Part shown: positions 25,463-33,353 of the stretch, in pieces | How positions within the stretch are numbered: position 1 is the stretch's first letter | Layout of the letters: the number at the start of each line of letters is the position of its first letter | Source of the DNA: Methanomassiliicoccus sp. | GTDB lineage: Archaea > Thermoplasmatota > Thermoplasmata > Methanomassiliicoccales > Methanomassiliicoccaceae | Length of the DNA: 64,000 bases | Reading direction: 5' to 3' | Assembly: GCA_018262895.1 (NCBI GenBank) | Contig: JADFDJ010000011.1 | Location: forward strand, 1-64,000 | The notes under the pieces: model-generated | The model's database searches: none | Told to the model about the DNA's origin: nothing | Seen by the model: the letters and a program-made list of their open reading frames with translations, nothing else | Translations under genes and position numbers: made by a program

Positions 25463-25607
25463 GAGTCATCCCATCGTGGTATCCCCTTCCTCATTTTAAT
25501 AGCTTATGTACCCATAACGATACTGGAAGAGTGAGGATGCCCCTTTCTTTGATAACCTGACCTTGTTTTGGAAATGTATTTATGACAGAAATCATAATAC
25601 GGTTTTG

Positions 25608-25617
25608 CATTATAATT
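25608..25617 (+). promoter_or_regulatory. TATA box of the thioredoxin operon
   Basis: The sequence CATTATAATT lies about 21-30 bases ahead of the ATG at 25638 and is flanked by TGCA on both sides (TGCA-TTATAAT-TGCA), which may be incidental. A GGTGG ribosome site follows. The placement indicates a very short or absent leader. Confidence 0.6.
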
Positions 25618-25637
25618 GCATAACCGATGGTGGACAC

Positions 25638-26033
25638 ATGGATGAGCTGGACCAGATAAGGGAGAGGAAGAGGCAGGAACTGATGAGGGATGCAGAGGCG
25701 GCTTTGGATTGGCCCTCGAAGCCTGTGGAAGTCAGCGATGCCTCCTTCAACGATTTCATAAAGAGATATAATGTGGTACTCGTGGACTGCTGGGCCCCCT
25801 GGTGCGGACCGTGCCGCATGGTGGCGCCGATAATCGATGCCCTGGCCCAGGAGATGAAAGGGAGGATGGCCTTCGGCAAGCTCAACACCGACATGAACCC
25901 ACGGACCTCCATGCGCTTCCAGATCGAGGCCATACCAACGATGCTGGTGTTCAAGGAGGGGGAGATGGTCGACAGGATTGTAGGGGCCAAGCCCAAGGAT
26001 GACCTCGCCAGACGCCTGAAGGCGTTCCTGTGA
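25638..26033 (+). CDS. trxA: Thioredoxin
   Basis: The 131-residue protein has the classical active site WCGPC (about residues 54-58), preceded by VVLVDCWAPWCGPCRMVAPIIDALAQE, the cis-Pro loop IEAIPTMLVF and the closing motif VDRIVGAKP. It has an extra N-terminal stretch of about 35 residues rich in Glu/Arg, as in many archaeal thioredoxins. It reduces disulfides in the cytoplasm and likely feeds MsrA/MsrB. A frame open from 25563 suggests an upstream start, but the ATG at 25638 has the TATA box at the right distance. The reductase gene follows 70 bases downstream. Confidence 0.93.
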   Translation: MDELDQIRERKRQELMRDAEAALDWPSKPVEVSDASFNDFIKRYNVVLVDCWAPWCGPCRMVAPIIDALAQEMKGRMAFGKLNTDMNPRTSMRFQIEAIPTMLVFKEGEMVDRIVGAKPKDDLARRLKAFL

Positions 26034-26103
26034 GGAAACCTCTTCGATTTCTACATATCGGTCTGCGGAAGCACGAAGGTATTAGAACTTGTCCGGCCCT
26101 ATA

Positions 26104-27003
26104 ATGGTGGGGATGCGATTGGACGCTGATATCACCATTATCGGGCTCGGCCCAGCTGGCCTGCAGGCGGCCATCCACGCCGCGCGGAAGAAGGTCAAGG
26201 TCGTGGCGGTGGGCAAGAGCGAGAACTCCGCTCTGATGAGGGCCGAGGTCGAGAACTATCTGGGCTTGGAGTCGATTTCGGGAAAGGAAATAATTCGCGT
26301 GGGCAGGGAGCAGGCCAAAAGGTTCGGTGCCGAACTGCTGGATGAGGATGTCATCAAGCTCACCAAAGAGGGGGACGTCTTCGTGACCATAACGGACAGC
26401 GACCGTGAGATACGGTCCAAGGCGGTCATACTGGCCATGGGCATATCGCGGGCCAAGCTGAACATACCGGGAGAGAAGGAGCTGCTCGGCAAGGGCGTTA
26501 GCTACTGTGCCTCCTGCGATGCCGGCTTCTTCAAGGGGCGCCCGGTGGCGGTCATCGGTGAGGAGAGCGAGGCCGCGGAGTCCGCCATACTGTTGTCCGA
26601 GATAGCCTCCCAGGTATACTGGGTGTACCGGGAACTCAAGGCCTCCCAGCATATGCTGGACAAGGTGAGGAGGACCAAGGTGGAGATGATTCAGGGGAGA
26701 CCGGTGCGCATCATCGGAGACCCGACGGTGAGCGGCCTGGAGTTGGAGGGCGGACGGACCTTGGAGGTCAACGGCGTGTTCATAGCTCTCGGCGCCAAGG
26801 GATCGATCGAGCTGGCCCTGGACCTCGGCATCATGCCCGACCCCAGCGGGATGATCGCCGTGGATGCCGACTGCCGCACGGAGATGGAGATGGTCTACGC
26901 CTGCGGCGACGTTACCGGCAATCCCTGGCAGCTCGCCAGAGCGGTCGGCCAGGGGAGTGTTGCGGGAGAGAACGCCGCCAAGGCCGTCCTCCAGGGGAAG
27001 TGA
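26104..27003 (+). CDS. trxB: Thioredoxin-disulfide reductase (FAD/NAD(P)-binding)
   Basis: The 299-residue flavoprotein has the FAD loop IIGLGPAGLQAAIHAARK at the N-terminus, the redox pair CASC in GVSYCASCDAGFF, the NAD(P) loop PVAVIGEESEAAESA, and the flavin-closing motif VYACGDVTGNPWQLARAVGQG. The motif is CxxC with Ala-Ser rather than the usual CATC. The NAD(P) loop lacks the typical GGGxSA form, reading GEESEA, so cofactor preference is open (F420 or NADH forms are known in methanogens). The start is likely the ATG at 26104; an ATG at 26113 is possible. It follows trxA, and the next gene begins 4 bases after its stop. Confidence 0.87.
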   Translation: MVGMRLDADITIIGLGPAGLQAAIHAARKKVKVVAVGKSENSALMRAEVENYLGLESISGKEIIRVGREQAKRFGAELLDEDVIKLTKEGDVFVTITDSDREIRSKAVILAMGISRAKLNIPGEKELLGKGVSYCASCDAGFFKGRPVAVIGEESEAAESAILLSEIASQVYWVYRELKASQHMLDKVRRTKVEMIQGRPVRIIGDPTVSGLELEGGRTLEVNGVFIALGAKGSIELALDLGIMPDPSGMIAVDADCRTEMEMVYACGDVTGNPWQLARAVGQGSVAGENAAKAVLQGK

Positions 27004-27007
27004 AATC

Positions 27008-27529
27008 GTGTCCCTGGAGAACGAGCTGGTGGCCGGCATCCTGCGTGAGGAGGGGGGCTTCCGCGAGGCTCTGCGGAAGGTCCTGGAGGAGGACCTTAAG
27101 ATGAGCATCCACGAGTTCTGCTCCCAGACCGGCCTGTCGCCTTCCACCATCTACAAGATCATGCAGGACCAGAGGGAGCCGAACCTGCGGACGGTGAGGG
27201 ACATAATACGTGCCGTCCGAAGGATGGAGACCAAGCCTCACGGCAACTTCATCGCCGTGATCGCCGCCCGCCCGGTCCTCAGCAGGATCGAGGAGCGGAC
27301 CGTAAGGCTAAACAACCGCGACATCCGCGTGAAGGAGTATCCTGCCAACAGCATGGAGGATGCCATCGTGGCGGCGGTCATGGCCGAGAAGGATGGCGCG
27401 CTGGCCATCGTCTGCGCGCCCATCGTGGCGCCGACGATCCAGAAGATATTGACCATCCCGGTATCTATCGTTATACCGAGGGACAGCATCCTCCGAGCGA
27501 TAGAGGTGGCCGCTCAGAAGACCCTTTAG
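27008..27529 (+). CDS. HTH regulator with C-terminal sensor-like domain
   Basis: The 173-residue product starts at a GTG with GGGGAAG upstream. The N-terminal half has an XRE-like helix-turn-helix (KMSIHEFCSQTGLSPSTIYKIMQDQREPNLRTVRDII). The C-terminal half (about 75-173) looks like a small alpha/beta domain with AIVCAPIVAPTIQKILTIPVSIVIPRDSILRAIEVA, reminiscent of PrpR-type N-terminal sensor domains. Position directly after trxB with coupling suggests control of, or response to, redox status; that is inference. It ends in TAG and overlaps the convergent ABC gene by 4 bases. Confidence 0.72.
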   Translation: MSLENELVAGILREEGGFREALRKVLEEDLKMSIHEFCSQTGLSPSTIYKIMQDQREPNLRTVRDIIRAVRRMETKPHGNFIAVIAARPVLSRIEERTVRLNNRDIRVKEYPANSMEDAIVAAVMAEKDGALAIVCAPIVAPTIQKILTIPVSIVIPRDSILRAIEVAAQKTL

Positions 27530-28296
27530 GTGCCCTGCCTCTGCTGTTCCAGCTCGTCTAGGATCTTCTTGCGGAGGTTGATGAAGTCCGGATGGCCACG
27601 GTCGCGCGGGCGGGGTAGCGTAACTGTGTAGATCTCCTTGATCTTGCCTGGTCGGCCTGTCATGACCACGATCCTATCGGCAAGGAAAACCGCCTCATCT
27701 ACAGAATGGGTGACAAATATCACCGTTTTCTTGGTCTCCTGCCAGATGCGCAAGAGCTCCTTCTGCATAAGATTCCTTGTCTGAGCGTCCAGAGCCCCGA
27801 ATGGTTCGTCCATTAATAGGATCTCGGGATTGGATGCGAGAGCCCTGGCAATCCCTACCCGCTGCTTCATACCTCCAGAGAGCTGATTTGGATGAGATCT
27901 TTCGAAACCGGAGAGACCAACGAGGTCAATGAATCTTTTTGAAATCTCATTCTTTTTGGTCTCATCGACCCCTTGTACCTCTAGTCCAAACTCCACGTTC
28001 TTTTTTACAGAACGCCAGGGGAACAGACCGAACTCTTGGAACACCATGCCTCGATCGGATCCTGGTCCAGTTATGGGTTTACCTTTGAGTGTGAGTTCAC
28101 CAGAGGTAGCGGATTGCAAGCCTGCGATGATCCTAAGCACCGTGGTCTTCCCGCATCCGGAAGGCCCCAGAAGACAGATGAACTCCCCATCCTTGACATC
28201 AAGCGCGAAACCCGAGACTGCTATCATCTCAGTATCGTCCTTGGGAAAGGCCTTGACCAGGTTCTTTATCGAAAGGATTATTCCATTCCCATCCAT
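27526..28296 (-). CDS. NitT/TauT-type ABC importer ATPase
   Basis: The 256-residue ATPase has Walker A GPSGCGKTT, Q-loop FQEFGLFPW, signature LSGGMKQRVGIARAL, Walker B ILLMDEPFGALD and the H-loop VTHSVDEA. The overall pattern matches TauB/SsuB/NrtD, which import nitrate, sulfonates, taurine, thiamine precursors or related compounds. The gene overlaps the permease gene by 19 bases. Ligand identity cannot be read from the ATPase alone. Confidence 0.92.
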   Translation of the reverse strand: MDGNGIILSIKNLVKAFPKDDTEMIAVSGFALDVKDGEFICLLGPSGCGKTTVLRIIAGLQSATSGELTLKGKPITGPGSDRGMVFQEFGLFPWRSVKKNVEFGLEVQGVDETKKNEISKRFIDLVGLSGFERSHPNQLSGGMKQRVGIARALASNPEILLMDEPFGALDAQTRNLMQKELLRIWQETKKTVIFVTHSVDEAVFLADRIVVMTGRPGKIKEIYTVTLPRPRDRGHPDFINLRKKILDELEQQRQGT

Positions 28297-29102
28297 TTTT
28301 TCACCCGCCTTTCGATCAGGGAGCCGATCAATAAAGTAAGGATACCGAGCACAGCTACCGTGACCATTCCTGCGAACATGATATCATACCGCCCTACCGT
28401 CTGACCACCTACGATTATGGCGCCCACGCCTCCTCCTTGAGAGGCCAGCATTTCAGCGGCAACAATACACATCCAACCAACCCCTAGGCCGATTTTTACA
28501 CCTGCCATCATGTAGGGGATGGATGAAGGAAACATTACCTTGCTGAACACCTGCCATCGGTTAGCACCCTGGGTCTTTGCGGCGTCGATTATCAGAGGAT
28601 CAACGCTTCGTACACCAAAGATGACGTTGGATAAGACGGGGAAGAACACACCTATGAAGATGGTTAGTATTGGGCCCCAGAAAAAACTTGCCGCCAGCAA
28701 GAGGAATGGAACCCATGCGATAGGCGGTATGGGGCGGAGAAGTTCAATAACAGGAAAGGCTAATGCGTTTGCATACCTCGAGTATCCAAGCAAGAGGCCC
28801 AAAGGTGCTGCTAGACCGAGTGCCAACAAGAATCCTAATAAGAACCTTACGAGGCTTGCATATACGTTCGCCAACAAGGAGAGCCTCGTTGCTGGGTCCT
28901 GGGTCCATGCCTGGACAAGCGCATCCCACACTTCAAGGGGCGTTGGAAGGTAATAAAAATTTTGCCCCTGGAAATAGAGTGCTAAAATCCACCAGAAAGC
29001 GATGAAAATCGGGAGGGAAACGATCATTAAACTTGTTCTTATCAGGTTATCCTTGGTCAAATACCTTTTATGAATGACCCTCATGTCTAACAAAGATGAC
29101 AT
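28278..29102 (-). CDS. NitT/TauT-type ABC importer permease
   Basis: The 274-residue protein has six membrane helices and the EAA loop region DAAKTQGANRWQVFSKVMFPSSIPYMMAGVKIGLG near residues 170-205, which contacts the ATPase. This is the SsuC/TauC/NrtB family. The start at 29102 begins MSSLLDM; a second ATG six codons on is possible. It is 50 bases downstream of the binding-protein gene in the same operon. Confidence 0.9.
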   Translation of the reverse strand: MSSLLDMRVIHKRYLTKDNLIRTSLMIVSLPIFIAFWWILALYFQGQNFYYLPTPLEVWDALVQAWTQDPATRLSLLANVYASLVRFLLGFLLALGLAAPLGLLLGYSRYANALAFPVIELLRPIPPIAWVPFLLLAASFFWGPILTIFIGVFFPVLSNVIFGVRSVDPLIIDAAKTQGANRWQVFSKVMFPSSIPYMMAGVKIGLGVGWMCIVAAEMLASQGGGVGAIIVGGQTVGRYDIMFAGMVTVAVLGILTLLIGSLIERRVKKWMGME

Positions 29103-29152: not shown

Positions 29153-30274
29153 TTAGGCTTTCACCACTTCATATCCATAGCGATCCGCGATCTCGAGAAG
29201 AAGCAGATACTGGATGGATGATATGCCCGGCTCTCCTATCGTCAGGCCATCCAAGTCATCTATGCTCTCGACATCGTTATTGACGATGAGGGCCGAACCC
29301 TCAGTGTTCGCCAGAGCAACTATGGACACATCGAGCTTCTGGTTAGCTACGTTCAGAATGGTCGGGGGAGCACCAAGATAACCGACATCCATGTCATTAC
29401 CCGCGAAGCCGGTCATGACCGCACCACCGTTAGCATAACCGCTGCCAGGCATTGCGGAGGGAGCCACGGCGTTGATGCCGTAGGCGGCGAAGACACTGCG
29501 GTCGCCGAGGCCGAGGAGGCTGCCCACCTCTGCGCTCATCGCCACCACCCTGGAGAACTGGTGCAGATCACCGTTAAGGTAGCCGATCCTGACATTTGTC
29601 AGAGTTGCATCCTCAGACACTGGTGTCACCGAGATTGCCTCTGCCAGGAGCGAAGTGTCGACCAGTCCATTCACGAAGGCGTCGACATCAGGGACATCAG
29701 TGGCCTTGATGAGACCAGAGGACACATAGGCATTGGTAAAGTTCTTGAAGTAATTTGTATGCGCTTCCGTCAGGTTATACTGGATTGTCATGTGCTCGAG
29801 GGCGGAGGCCACAACAGTGGTGTTGCGGTTACTGAATGACGCCCCTAGGTTGAGCAACAAGGTATAGTTGGCCTGACCTTCTGTCGTGTTCTTGTTCGCA
29901 ACCGTCTCCACTATCCAGTTGTTGGCTTCTATATGGGCCTTAAGGACCGCCAAGGCAGCGTTCCTGTTGGAATTTATAAACGTCTGATCCATAGCAACGA
30001 CACAGCATGGATGATCTGGCCAAATATCTCCAGACCAAAGTAGGGCGTGGCCAGTTCCATTGGTTATAGAGTCAGAACAGTATGGTTCCCAGCTTACTCC
30101 ACCATCGATTTGGCCAGATTGTATGTATGCTTGCTGATTCACAGGTGCCACATCGAGATACTTAATCGTCTTGGTGGTGGTAGCGGGATTCAAAACTCCC
30201 GAAAGTGCTACACCAGCGACGACAATTATCGCAGCGATGGCGACCACGGCGGCTATGAGATAACTTTTCTTCAA
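29153..30274 (-). CDS. NitT/TauT-type binding protein with apparently permuted lobes
   Basis: The 373-residue product has a basic N-terminus and a membrane segment (about 5-29), as for a tethered archaeal binding protein. Normal SsuA/TauA-like proteins begin with the N-lobe (strand like RIGYLNGD, then DVGYLGAPP and a final helix) and continue with the C-lobe (VAP...SGQIDGGVSWEPY). Here the C-lobe motifs come first: YLDVAP 39-44, SGQIDGGVSWEPY 53-65, HPCCVV 88-93. The N-lobe motifs come last: RIGYLNGD 229-236, DVGYLGAPP 296-304, GISSIQYLLLLEIADRYGY near the C-terminus. The last strand EVVKA would lead directly into TIKYLDVAP in the normal order, so the chain looks circularly permuted. Each lobe is present once. 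The reading frame is intact. It heads the importer operon. Confidence 0.82.
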   Translation of the reverse strand: MKKSYLIAAVVAIAAIIVVAGVALSGVLNPATTTKTIKYLDVAPVNQQAYIQSGQIDGGVSWEPYCSDSITNGTGHALLWSGDIWPDHPCCVVAMDQTFINSNRNAALAVLKAHIEANNWIVETVANKNTTEGQANYTLLLNLGASFSNRNTTVVASALEHMTIQYNLTEAHTNYFKNFTNAYVSSGLIKATDVPDVDAFVNGLVDTSLLAEAISVTPVSEDATLTNVRIGYLNGDLHQFSRVVAMSAEVGSLLGLGDRSVFAAYGINAVAPSAMPGSGYANGGAVMTGFAGNDMDVGYLGAPPTILNVANQKLDVSIVALANTEGSALIVNNDVESIDDLDGLTIGEPGISSIQYLLLLEIADRYGYEVVKA

Positions 30275-30592: not shown

Positions 30593-31054
30593 ATGTTCGA
30601 GCTTAACGTTGAAAGCAATACTCCCCTAACTCCCCTTACGGATGTTGACGAGATCGCCCTGCAGTTCCTCACACACATAGGTTACATACCCAAGGGCTAT
30701 AACCCCAAGACCAGCGTGGTCGATACCCAGGACAGCGTCCCCTACCGCCTGTTCATGGACTGCTTCGTGCGAAACATGAAGAGACCGTGGCTGGTGGAGG
30801 AGCTGGCCGCGCAATTGAGGACCACCAAGCCCACCATCTACCGTCACCTCAACAAGCTCAAGGCCGTGGACATACTGGAGGAGGTGGAGACGGAGCGTGA
30901 CGGGTCCTTGAAGAAGGGCTACCGCATCCGCTACGGCGACCTGCGCAAGGCGTGGAGCTTCACCGAGGCCAACGTGGAGATGGCCATGCAGAACTACCGG
31001 CAAACGGTGGACCACCTACAGAAGCTCATCGAGGAGGAGAACAAATGGCAGTGA
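30593..31054 (+). CDS. wHTH regulator, ArsR/HTH_20-like
   Basis: The 153-residue protein has a winged helix in its middle: PWLVEELAAQLRTTKPTIYRHLNKLKAVDILEEVETERDGSLKKGYRIRYGDL. The N-terminal extension (about 1-60) and a C-terminal helix (about 125-153) are likely for dimerisation. It is divergent from the NitT/TauT importer and could regulate it, or the small gene and Elp3 that follow. The message appears leaderless: the ATG lies about 25 bases after an AT-rich TATA-like element without a ribosome site. Confidence 0.78.
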   Translation: MFELNVESNTPLTPLTDVDEIALQFLTHIGYIPKGYNPKTSVVDTQDSVPYRLFMDCFVRNMKRPWLVEELAAQLRTTKPTIYRHLNKLKAVDILEEVETERDGSLKKGYRIRYGDLRKAWSFTEANVEMAMQNYRQTVDHLQKLIEEENKWQ

Positions 31055-32918: not shown

Positions 32919-33353
32919 ATGTATACGGGCTCCAGGGGAAGGATTGTAAGGTCTGTAGAGGAATGGAGGGAGAGCCTGACCGCAGATCAGTTTCGTATAC
33001 TGCGGCAGAACGGTACCGAGAGACCTTTTGTGAACCAGTATTGGAACAACCACGACATCGGGACCTACGTATGCGCTGGATGCGGAAACGAACTGTTCCT
33101 GTCCGAGAACCAGTTCGACTCCGGCACGGGTTGGCCCAGCTTCTCCTCTCCCTGCGGAGGGGGGTCGGTGGAGACCAGCCTGGAGGTGCGGTTCGGAAAG
33201 AGGCGCATCGCCGTGTCCTGCGCTTGCTGCGGGGGGCATCTCGGCCACGTGTGCGATGACAGCTCTCAGATGACCGGGTTGAGGTACTGCATCAACTCCG
33301 GCGCCATGTTATTCTTCCCAAGCAGGAAGATGAAGAAACAAAAGAGAAAGTAA
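32919..33353 (+). CDS. msrB: Peptide methionine-R-sulfoxide reductase
   Basis: The 144-residue protein has the MsrB pattern: two zinc CxxC pairs (C52/C55 and C101/C104), the catalytic site RYCINSGAM with C124, and SGTGWPSFSSP near 68-77. It reduces methionine-R-sulfoxide. HVCDD replaces the common HVFDD, adding a cysteine at 112. The C-terminus is basic. It follows elp3 by 38 bases and is probably a member of the same or a nearby transcription unit. MsrA is in a different place (15.5 kb). Confidence 0.95.
   Translation: MYTGSRGRIVRSVEEWRESLTADQFRILRQNGTERPFVNQYWNNHDIGTYVCAGCGNELFLSENQFDSGTGWPSFSSPCGGGSVETSLEVRFGKRRIAVSCACCGGHLGHVCDDSSQMTGLRYCINSGAMLFFPSRKMKKQKRK

Follow-up and report, generated by a model that had tools for sequence, protein, structure and literature searches.

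The window, a stretch of 64,000 nucleotides from Methanomassiliicoccus sp., harbors an ABC-transporter operon that includes the gene of a substrate-binding protein with an intact reading frame (Table 1). The genes of a BPD_transp_1 permease and an ABC ATPase follow it directly on the same strand, which is the NitT/TauT type of operon, and at almost all loci read both genes accompany that of the binding protein. Permease homologues that are 34–38% identical adjoin the related binding proteins of Archaeoglobi and Mnemosynella, and homologues of the HTH_3/PrpR_N-like regulator lie beside the transporter in other Methanomassiliicoccales and also, at 38–48% identity, in Archaeoglobi, Mnemosynella and JdFR-43. 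The region is flanked (25563–27003 and 32919–33353) by genes for thioredoxin, a thioredoxin-reductase-like protein and methionine sulfoxide reductase B; these redox genes are ordinary, the thioredoxin-reductase-like one being conserved in synteny. Another NMT1-like binding protein, of normal order and with a permease gene nearby on the same contig, is encoded at C12:6420–7052 of the same genome (G000).

Table 1. Features of the binding-protein gene and its neighbours in the window
Feature	Coordinates	Strand	Basis or remark
Circularly permuted NitT/TauT-type substrate-binding protein	29153..30274	(-)	order type A; 373 aa; TTG start
N-terminal membrane anchor, residues 1–30	30185..30274	(-)	predicted helix 3–28; no lipobox Cys
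Segment 3, residues 36–213: canonical C-terminal two thirds, first in the mature chain	29636..30169	(-)	TIGR01728, circular profile
HPCC motif, residues 88–91	30002..30013	(-)	
Linker joining the former C- and N-termini, residues ~214–225	29600..29635	(-)	rotation optimum; model
Segment 1, residues 226–312: canonical N-terminal part of lobe 1 (RIGYLNGD...DVGYLGAPP)	29339..29599	(-)	segment and circular profiles
Segment 2, residues 313–371: rest of the canonical first third, now C-terminus	29162..29338	(-)	segment and circular profiles
ABC permease (BPD_transp_1)	28278..29102	(-)	same operon
ABC ATPase (TauB/NrtD/SaoA-like)	27526..28296	(-)	same operon
HTH_3 + PrpR_N-like regulator	26864..27529	(+)	true start probably further in
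Divergent HTH_20/ArsR-like regulator	30593..31054	(+)	conserved neighbour within Methanomassiliicoccales

The preliminary description of this locus, which claimed a circular permutation, had placed three motifs at residues 39–93, ahead of three others at residues 229–360, and all six were found again in these places: YLDVAP at 39–44, SGQIDGGVSWEPY at 53–65, HPCCVV at 88–93, RIGYLNGD at 229–236, DVGYLGAPP at 296–304 and GISSIQYLLLL at 350–360. Profile searches gave the same swapped order: positions 130–222 of TIGR01728 (SsuA_fam) match residues 35–127, positions 34–119 of TIGR01729 (taurine-binding protein) match residues 280–362, and positions 148–244 of Pfam NMT1_2 match residues 28–128. In a rotation test, the mature chain was scored at every 5-residue rotation against a profile made from 39 normal-order relatives of bacteria and archaea. 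The encoded order scored 118 bits and the best rotations, starting at residues 206–226, scored 227–233 bits, with the optimum at 211–226, which coincides with the linker between the former C- and N-termini. The claimed permutation is thus borne out by independent profiles in swapped order and by a score that about doubles on rotation (118 to 232 bits), and it was also right that each part occurs once, in an intact frame, with the N-terminal anchor ahead of the permuted chain.

Orthologues that are 93–96% identical in two other genomes, and others at 41–60%, match collinearly over residues 1–370. Since this excludes chance and assembly error, the swapped order is real. The idea that it reflects an assembly rearrangement or a broken gene has practically nothing in its favor: the sole circumstance is that the assembly containing the window is a draft in 30 contigs, and no supporting evidence was found, whereas the same order recurs in those two genomes and, at the lower identities, in many independent assemblies, and the open frame, the conserved site residues and a high-confidence model speak against a broken gene. 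It is very improbable, too, that halves of different genes were joined and converged, so that the protein would not be homologous to one normal protein. Such a joining has been suggested as possible for part of TpMglB-2 (PMC4990184), and part of the present family, the Methanomicrobiales members with inserts, is strongly diverged. However, after rotation the chain aligns in a single piece to normal-order relatives, its score being doubled, most members of each order give one continuous wrap-around stretch on a circular profile, and L021–L023, which have the normal order and come from the same archaeal order, are closely similar to permuted members.

The protein is a permuted branch of the NitT/TauT family, homologous to it but of non-standard order. 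It scores 91.5 bits with PF13379 (NMT1-like; cut-off 24.7) and departs from the linear order that is canonical for type II binding proteins and characterizes that family. With TIGR01728 (aliphatic sulfonate SsuA) it reaches 72.7 bits, in two stretches, against a cut-off of 163.5; the permutation itself depresses this score. It resembles the SsuA/TauA/NMT1 proteins (PF13379/TIGR01728) in homology over all segments and in operon type, and its canonical homologue L076 resembles TauA and SsuA in fold; it is unlike them in linear order, in falling below the TIGR01728 cut-off and in its vicinal HPCC motif.

Segment 3 contains the rest of lobe 2, the WEPY and HPCC motifs and the C-terminal helices, and segment 2 ends with the first beta-alpha unit of lobe 2. 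Of the exchange of N-lobe and C-lobe proposed earlier, the swapped order therefore stands, but the cut does not lie between the lobes. At 371|36 it splits lobe 2: the first beta-alpha unit of this lobe (DGLTIGEPG...YGYEVVKA) has become the C-terminus, and the second strand of the lobe (TIKYLDVAP) has become the N-terminus of the mature chain. An AlphaFold2 model built on an alignment of 35 permuted sequences (pLDDT 94.0, pTM 0.87) has the anchor helix at residues 3–28, a complete alternation of strands and helices, and neither helix nor strand between residues 213 and 226. As a control, the relative L076, which belongs to the same archaeal order but has the normal chain order, was modelled as well (pLDDT 92.2). 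The secondary-structure orders of the two models are nearly identical after rotation, so that the permuted protein is predicted to have a rotated form of the canonical order of elements. In Foldseek searches the control had 946 PDB matches at E<=0.001, led by TauA (3.0e-19) and SsuA (1.7e-17), and the permuted model had 0 at this threshold, which is expected when a sequential aligner meets a permuted topology. Its matches to NMDA receptors and OpuAC were not significant, with rmsd near 30 A in the receptor alignments, and were discarded; OpuAC and ProX may be a known permuted pair, for which the literature searched gave no confirmation.

Read against what is known of type II binding proteins, the secondary-structure order of the models suggests that the permuted chain should still cross between the lobes twice, at about residues 80–88 and 334, in the opposite order. 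As two hinge crossings would be kept, the different hinge expected in the preliminary description is not supported. The predicted hydrophobic N-terminal helix, together with the lipobox (..GC) that Archaeoglobi, Mnemosynella and clostridial members have at the anchor position of the alignment, agrees with export and anchoring as the predicted location.

The permutation, earlier described as unusual, is no isolated case: the chain order of the window protein is conserved throughout its archaeal order and outside it, and relatives show further chain orders. A homologue is present in 95 of 101 genomes surveyed (the window's own and 100 relatives), and a scan in which each species of bacteria and archaea was represented by one genome yielded 80 named loci. 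Cut points were set by segment profiles and a doubled circular profile, and are numbered after the 373-residue protein. Type A (371|36), as in the window, occurs in most families of Methanomassiliicoccales, in Archaeoglobus, Geoglobus, Ca. Mnemosynella, JdFR-19 and JdFR-43, in Thermincola and other Bacillota (some Clostridia) and, with inserts, in Methanomicrobiales (L091, L093, L108 and others), so that a search for the same order in related archaea, as had been proposed, finds it widely. Type B (312|313) belongs to the Methanomethylophilaceae group (L028–L032, L037–L039, L059 and others), and type D (~70|80) to L223–L228, from genomes of that group, whose chains start just before H[PT]CC and end just after WEP. 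Type E (~334|335) is represented by L219 (871–1956 (+)), in which the signal is that of a TAT lipoprotein and the mature part begins with GIKTIADLKGKKIALP and ends with SGLFYRKGLTP. The canonical order (termini ~213|226) is found in most bacteria, in Asgard and other archaea, and also in L021–L023 inside Methanomassiliicoccales. Every non-canonical cut falls at a predicted loop, turn or element edge in the model of the window protein. In-frame TGAs of some relatives, considered as selenocysteine codons, proved to be natural stop codons that had been read past.

In an IQ-TREE tree of 106 proteins, with all members on one circular alignment, at least eight order changes are needed among five states, whereas shuffled labels need 51; this count of events is only indicative, because the constrained groups were chosen after the tree was seen and some of its branches are long. 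Type D apparently has two separate origins within type B, a single D group being rejected (p-AU 2.9e-5). The type A proteins of Methanomicrobiales group with canonical L097/L205/L206 (97/90), and their union with those of Archaeoglobi is rejected (p-AU 4.9e-4); it seems, then, that the family arrived at this cut on more than one occasion. Type E, nested among the normal-order proteins L205/L206 (support 100/100), is apparently a recent permutation that would make a good model for the mechanism. The clade formed by types A and B of Methanomassiliicoccales also includes canonical L021–L023, which may have returned to the normal order by way of a tandem A-A gene, the root being unsure. Rooting with E. 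coli TauA and SsuA was unstable, owing to long branches, and for that reason no direction of the order changes is claimed.

Tandem genes that survive in the family suggest a route by which the order may have changed. In-frame A-A genes (L024/L051, 709 aa) have the segment order 3-1-2-3-1-2, and in-frame B-B genes (L035 and L222, 757 aa) the order 2-3-1-2-3-1. The first copy of L024 has lost WEP and CC (SLEPY, HPGS), as expected of a copy under weaker constraint. A binding-protein gene would first have been duplicated in tandem and in frame, and its ends would then have been lost with the N-terminal anchor retained, giving the permuted order; the family would repeatedly have taken this route, with four different cut points as the outcome. 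Partial copies upstream of L047 and L055 and an N-terminal extension of L012 were considered as remnants of duplication and rejected, as they bear no resemblance to family members and appear to be unrelated or antisense frames. On balance, it seems more likely than not that the chain order is evolutionarily labile: by in-frame tandem duplication with later trimming, the termini would have moved at least eight times among five positions (four of them non-canonical), including two parallel moves to one new position and possibly, in Methanomassiliicoccales, a return to normal, with site residues and operon fixed.

The putative site residues W62, H88, C90, C91, D236, H238, G326, S327 and Q355 are largely unchanged across the cut types; their conservation suggests that they contact the ligand. 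Histidine and the vicinal cysteine pair of HPCC are nearly invariant in types A, B and D and in most canonical relatives, and the single type E protein has Asp in place of C91. As these residues stay constant, the permutations leave the site intact and shift the anchor. The position of the cut probably has little effect on binding and chiefly determines to which part of the fold the membrane anchor is attached. It is plausible that permutation chooses the face of the receptor that hangs from the membrane, and the attachment point of the tether may be under selection; a similar idea of tether orientation has been raised for TpMglB-2 (PMC4990184).

Genomic context points to coenzyme M (CoM) or a close alkanesulfonate as the most likely ligand, an assignment that we make tentatively. 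In Mnemosynella (L070:1600–7419 (+)), genes for CoM biosynthesis, namely a cysteate synthase and a sulfopyruvate decarboxylase fusion, stand beside the permuted transporter, followed by a signal-less normal-order SsuA-like gene, the permuted binding protein, the permease and the ATPase; L036, too, has a signal-less SsuA-like protein. The methyltransferase and corrinoid-activator genes that precede the operon in Clostridia and Geoglobus/Archaeoglobus, described below, likewise count in favor of CoM. The genome of the window (99.66% complete) has mcrA; in it sulfopyruvate decarboxylase alpha was not found, and cysteate synthase gave just a sub-threshold similar match, with none above the cut-off. 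The genes ssuABC for CoM are present in almost all methanogens, and rumen Methanomassiliicoccales without comADE depend on CoM from outside (PMC10658910), while in M. acetivorans a CoM-specific ssuAC transporter is raised on CoM starvation (PMC12068725). The likeness of the window transporter to these CoM-specific ssuABC systems (PMC12068725, PMC10658910) is one of proposed function. CoM synthesis was inferred in three Methanomassiliicoccales by an earlier comparative study (PMC4153887), and the need for CoM may therefore vary. A strict link between the permuted protein and mcrA was rejected, as most Archaeoglobi-like genomes with the permuted protein lack mcrA. Given these genomes, and since we know of no CoM need in Clostridia, the substrate may differ or be broader.

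Another substrate of the family (taurine, other alkanesulfonates, nitrate/bicarbonate or a thiamine precursor) is a less likely ligand. The nearest solved relatives by sequence, NrtA, TauA, CmpA and SsuA, and by structure of the canonical homologue L076, TauA and SsuA, would fit it, but genes for sulfonate oxidation, nitrate reduction or thiamine synthesis were not seen beside the transporter in the loci examined. Still less likely is a methylated or organometallic compound, with the vicinal cysteines of HPCC as soft-metal ligands, as proposed for the SAO (Sec-assisted organometallic) transporter. The binding protein is of the same superfamily as SaoX (NF040735), there is weak similarity to SaoX, SaoP and SaoA (the last being the best NCBIfam match of the window's ATPase, with 276 bits against a cut-off of 360), and the Cys-Cys pair is near-invariant. 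In Clostridia and Archaeoglobi, methyltransferases and corrinoid activators are neighbours, the transporter operon of L066, L073, L074 and L077 (Bacillota/Clostridia and Geoglobus/Archaeoglobus) lying directly behind genes for a RACo-type corrinoid activator and for MtrH-like and MtaA/CmuA-like methyltransferases. All three subunits of the window, however, stay below their cut-offs, no Sec and no SAO-type neighbour was seen among the genes examined, and the neighbours in Mnemosynella are those of CoM biosynthesis; an identity with SaoX itself is rejected at 48.2 bits against a cut-off of 300 and with no SAO operon.

We regard the protein, with considerable confidence, as a membrane-anchored, circularly permuted receptor of a SsuA/TauA-type ABC importer, whose order would have arisen by duplication and trimming, with CoM or a close alkanesulfonate as its likeliest ligand. 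Its chain runs from the anchor through the second part of lobe 2, most of the C-terminal helices of lobe 1, the linker and N-terminal lobe 1 to the first beta-alpha unit of lobe 2. It would fold as the usual two-lobed flytrap, bind the ligand in the cleft and hand it to the permease and the ATPase encoded directly downstream.

A natural permutant is already known in TpMglB-2 (Tp0684) of Treponema pallidum ('Type Ic / Cluster Bc'), a membrane-tethered protein that binds its ligand and changes conformation on binding (PMC4990184). In both proteins the chain order is a rotation of the standard fold. TpMglB-2, however, has the type I/cluster B sugar-binding fold, whereas the relatives of the 373-residue protein are TauA, SsuA and NrtA; for TpMglB-2 one cut point is described, with a permuted part that is poorly conserved and not clearly homologous, and its permutation adds a fourth hinge crossing (PMC4990184), which the model does not lead us to expect here. 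In the literature searched, which took in few subscription journals, we found no report of a permuted SsuA/TauA-type protein, nor of repeated permutation within one binding-protein family of this type. Natural circular permutation is usually an old, single event with its intermediates lost, and DNA methyltransferases are a known case of a family permuted repeatedly. As permuted binding proteins were already known, what stands out here is the number of forms and the surviving tandem genes.

Normal, permuted (four cut points) and tandem forms coexist among relatives that have a common operon type and a common, conserved set of putative site residues, and therefore the route of permutation, the cut points that are tolerated and selection on the tether become testable. 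For annotation, linear profiles split or under-score the permuted proteins and sequential structure searches miss them, so that a probable importer of CoM (or a related sulfonate) in methanogens is hard to recognise by standard searches. Two further type A proteins (L025:1–2676 (-) and L026:1169–3880 (-)) are fused to about 500 residues that resemble repeated beta-sandwich domains, and are perhaps surface-anchored.
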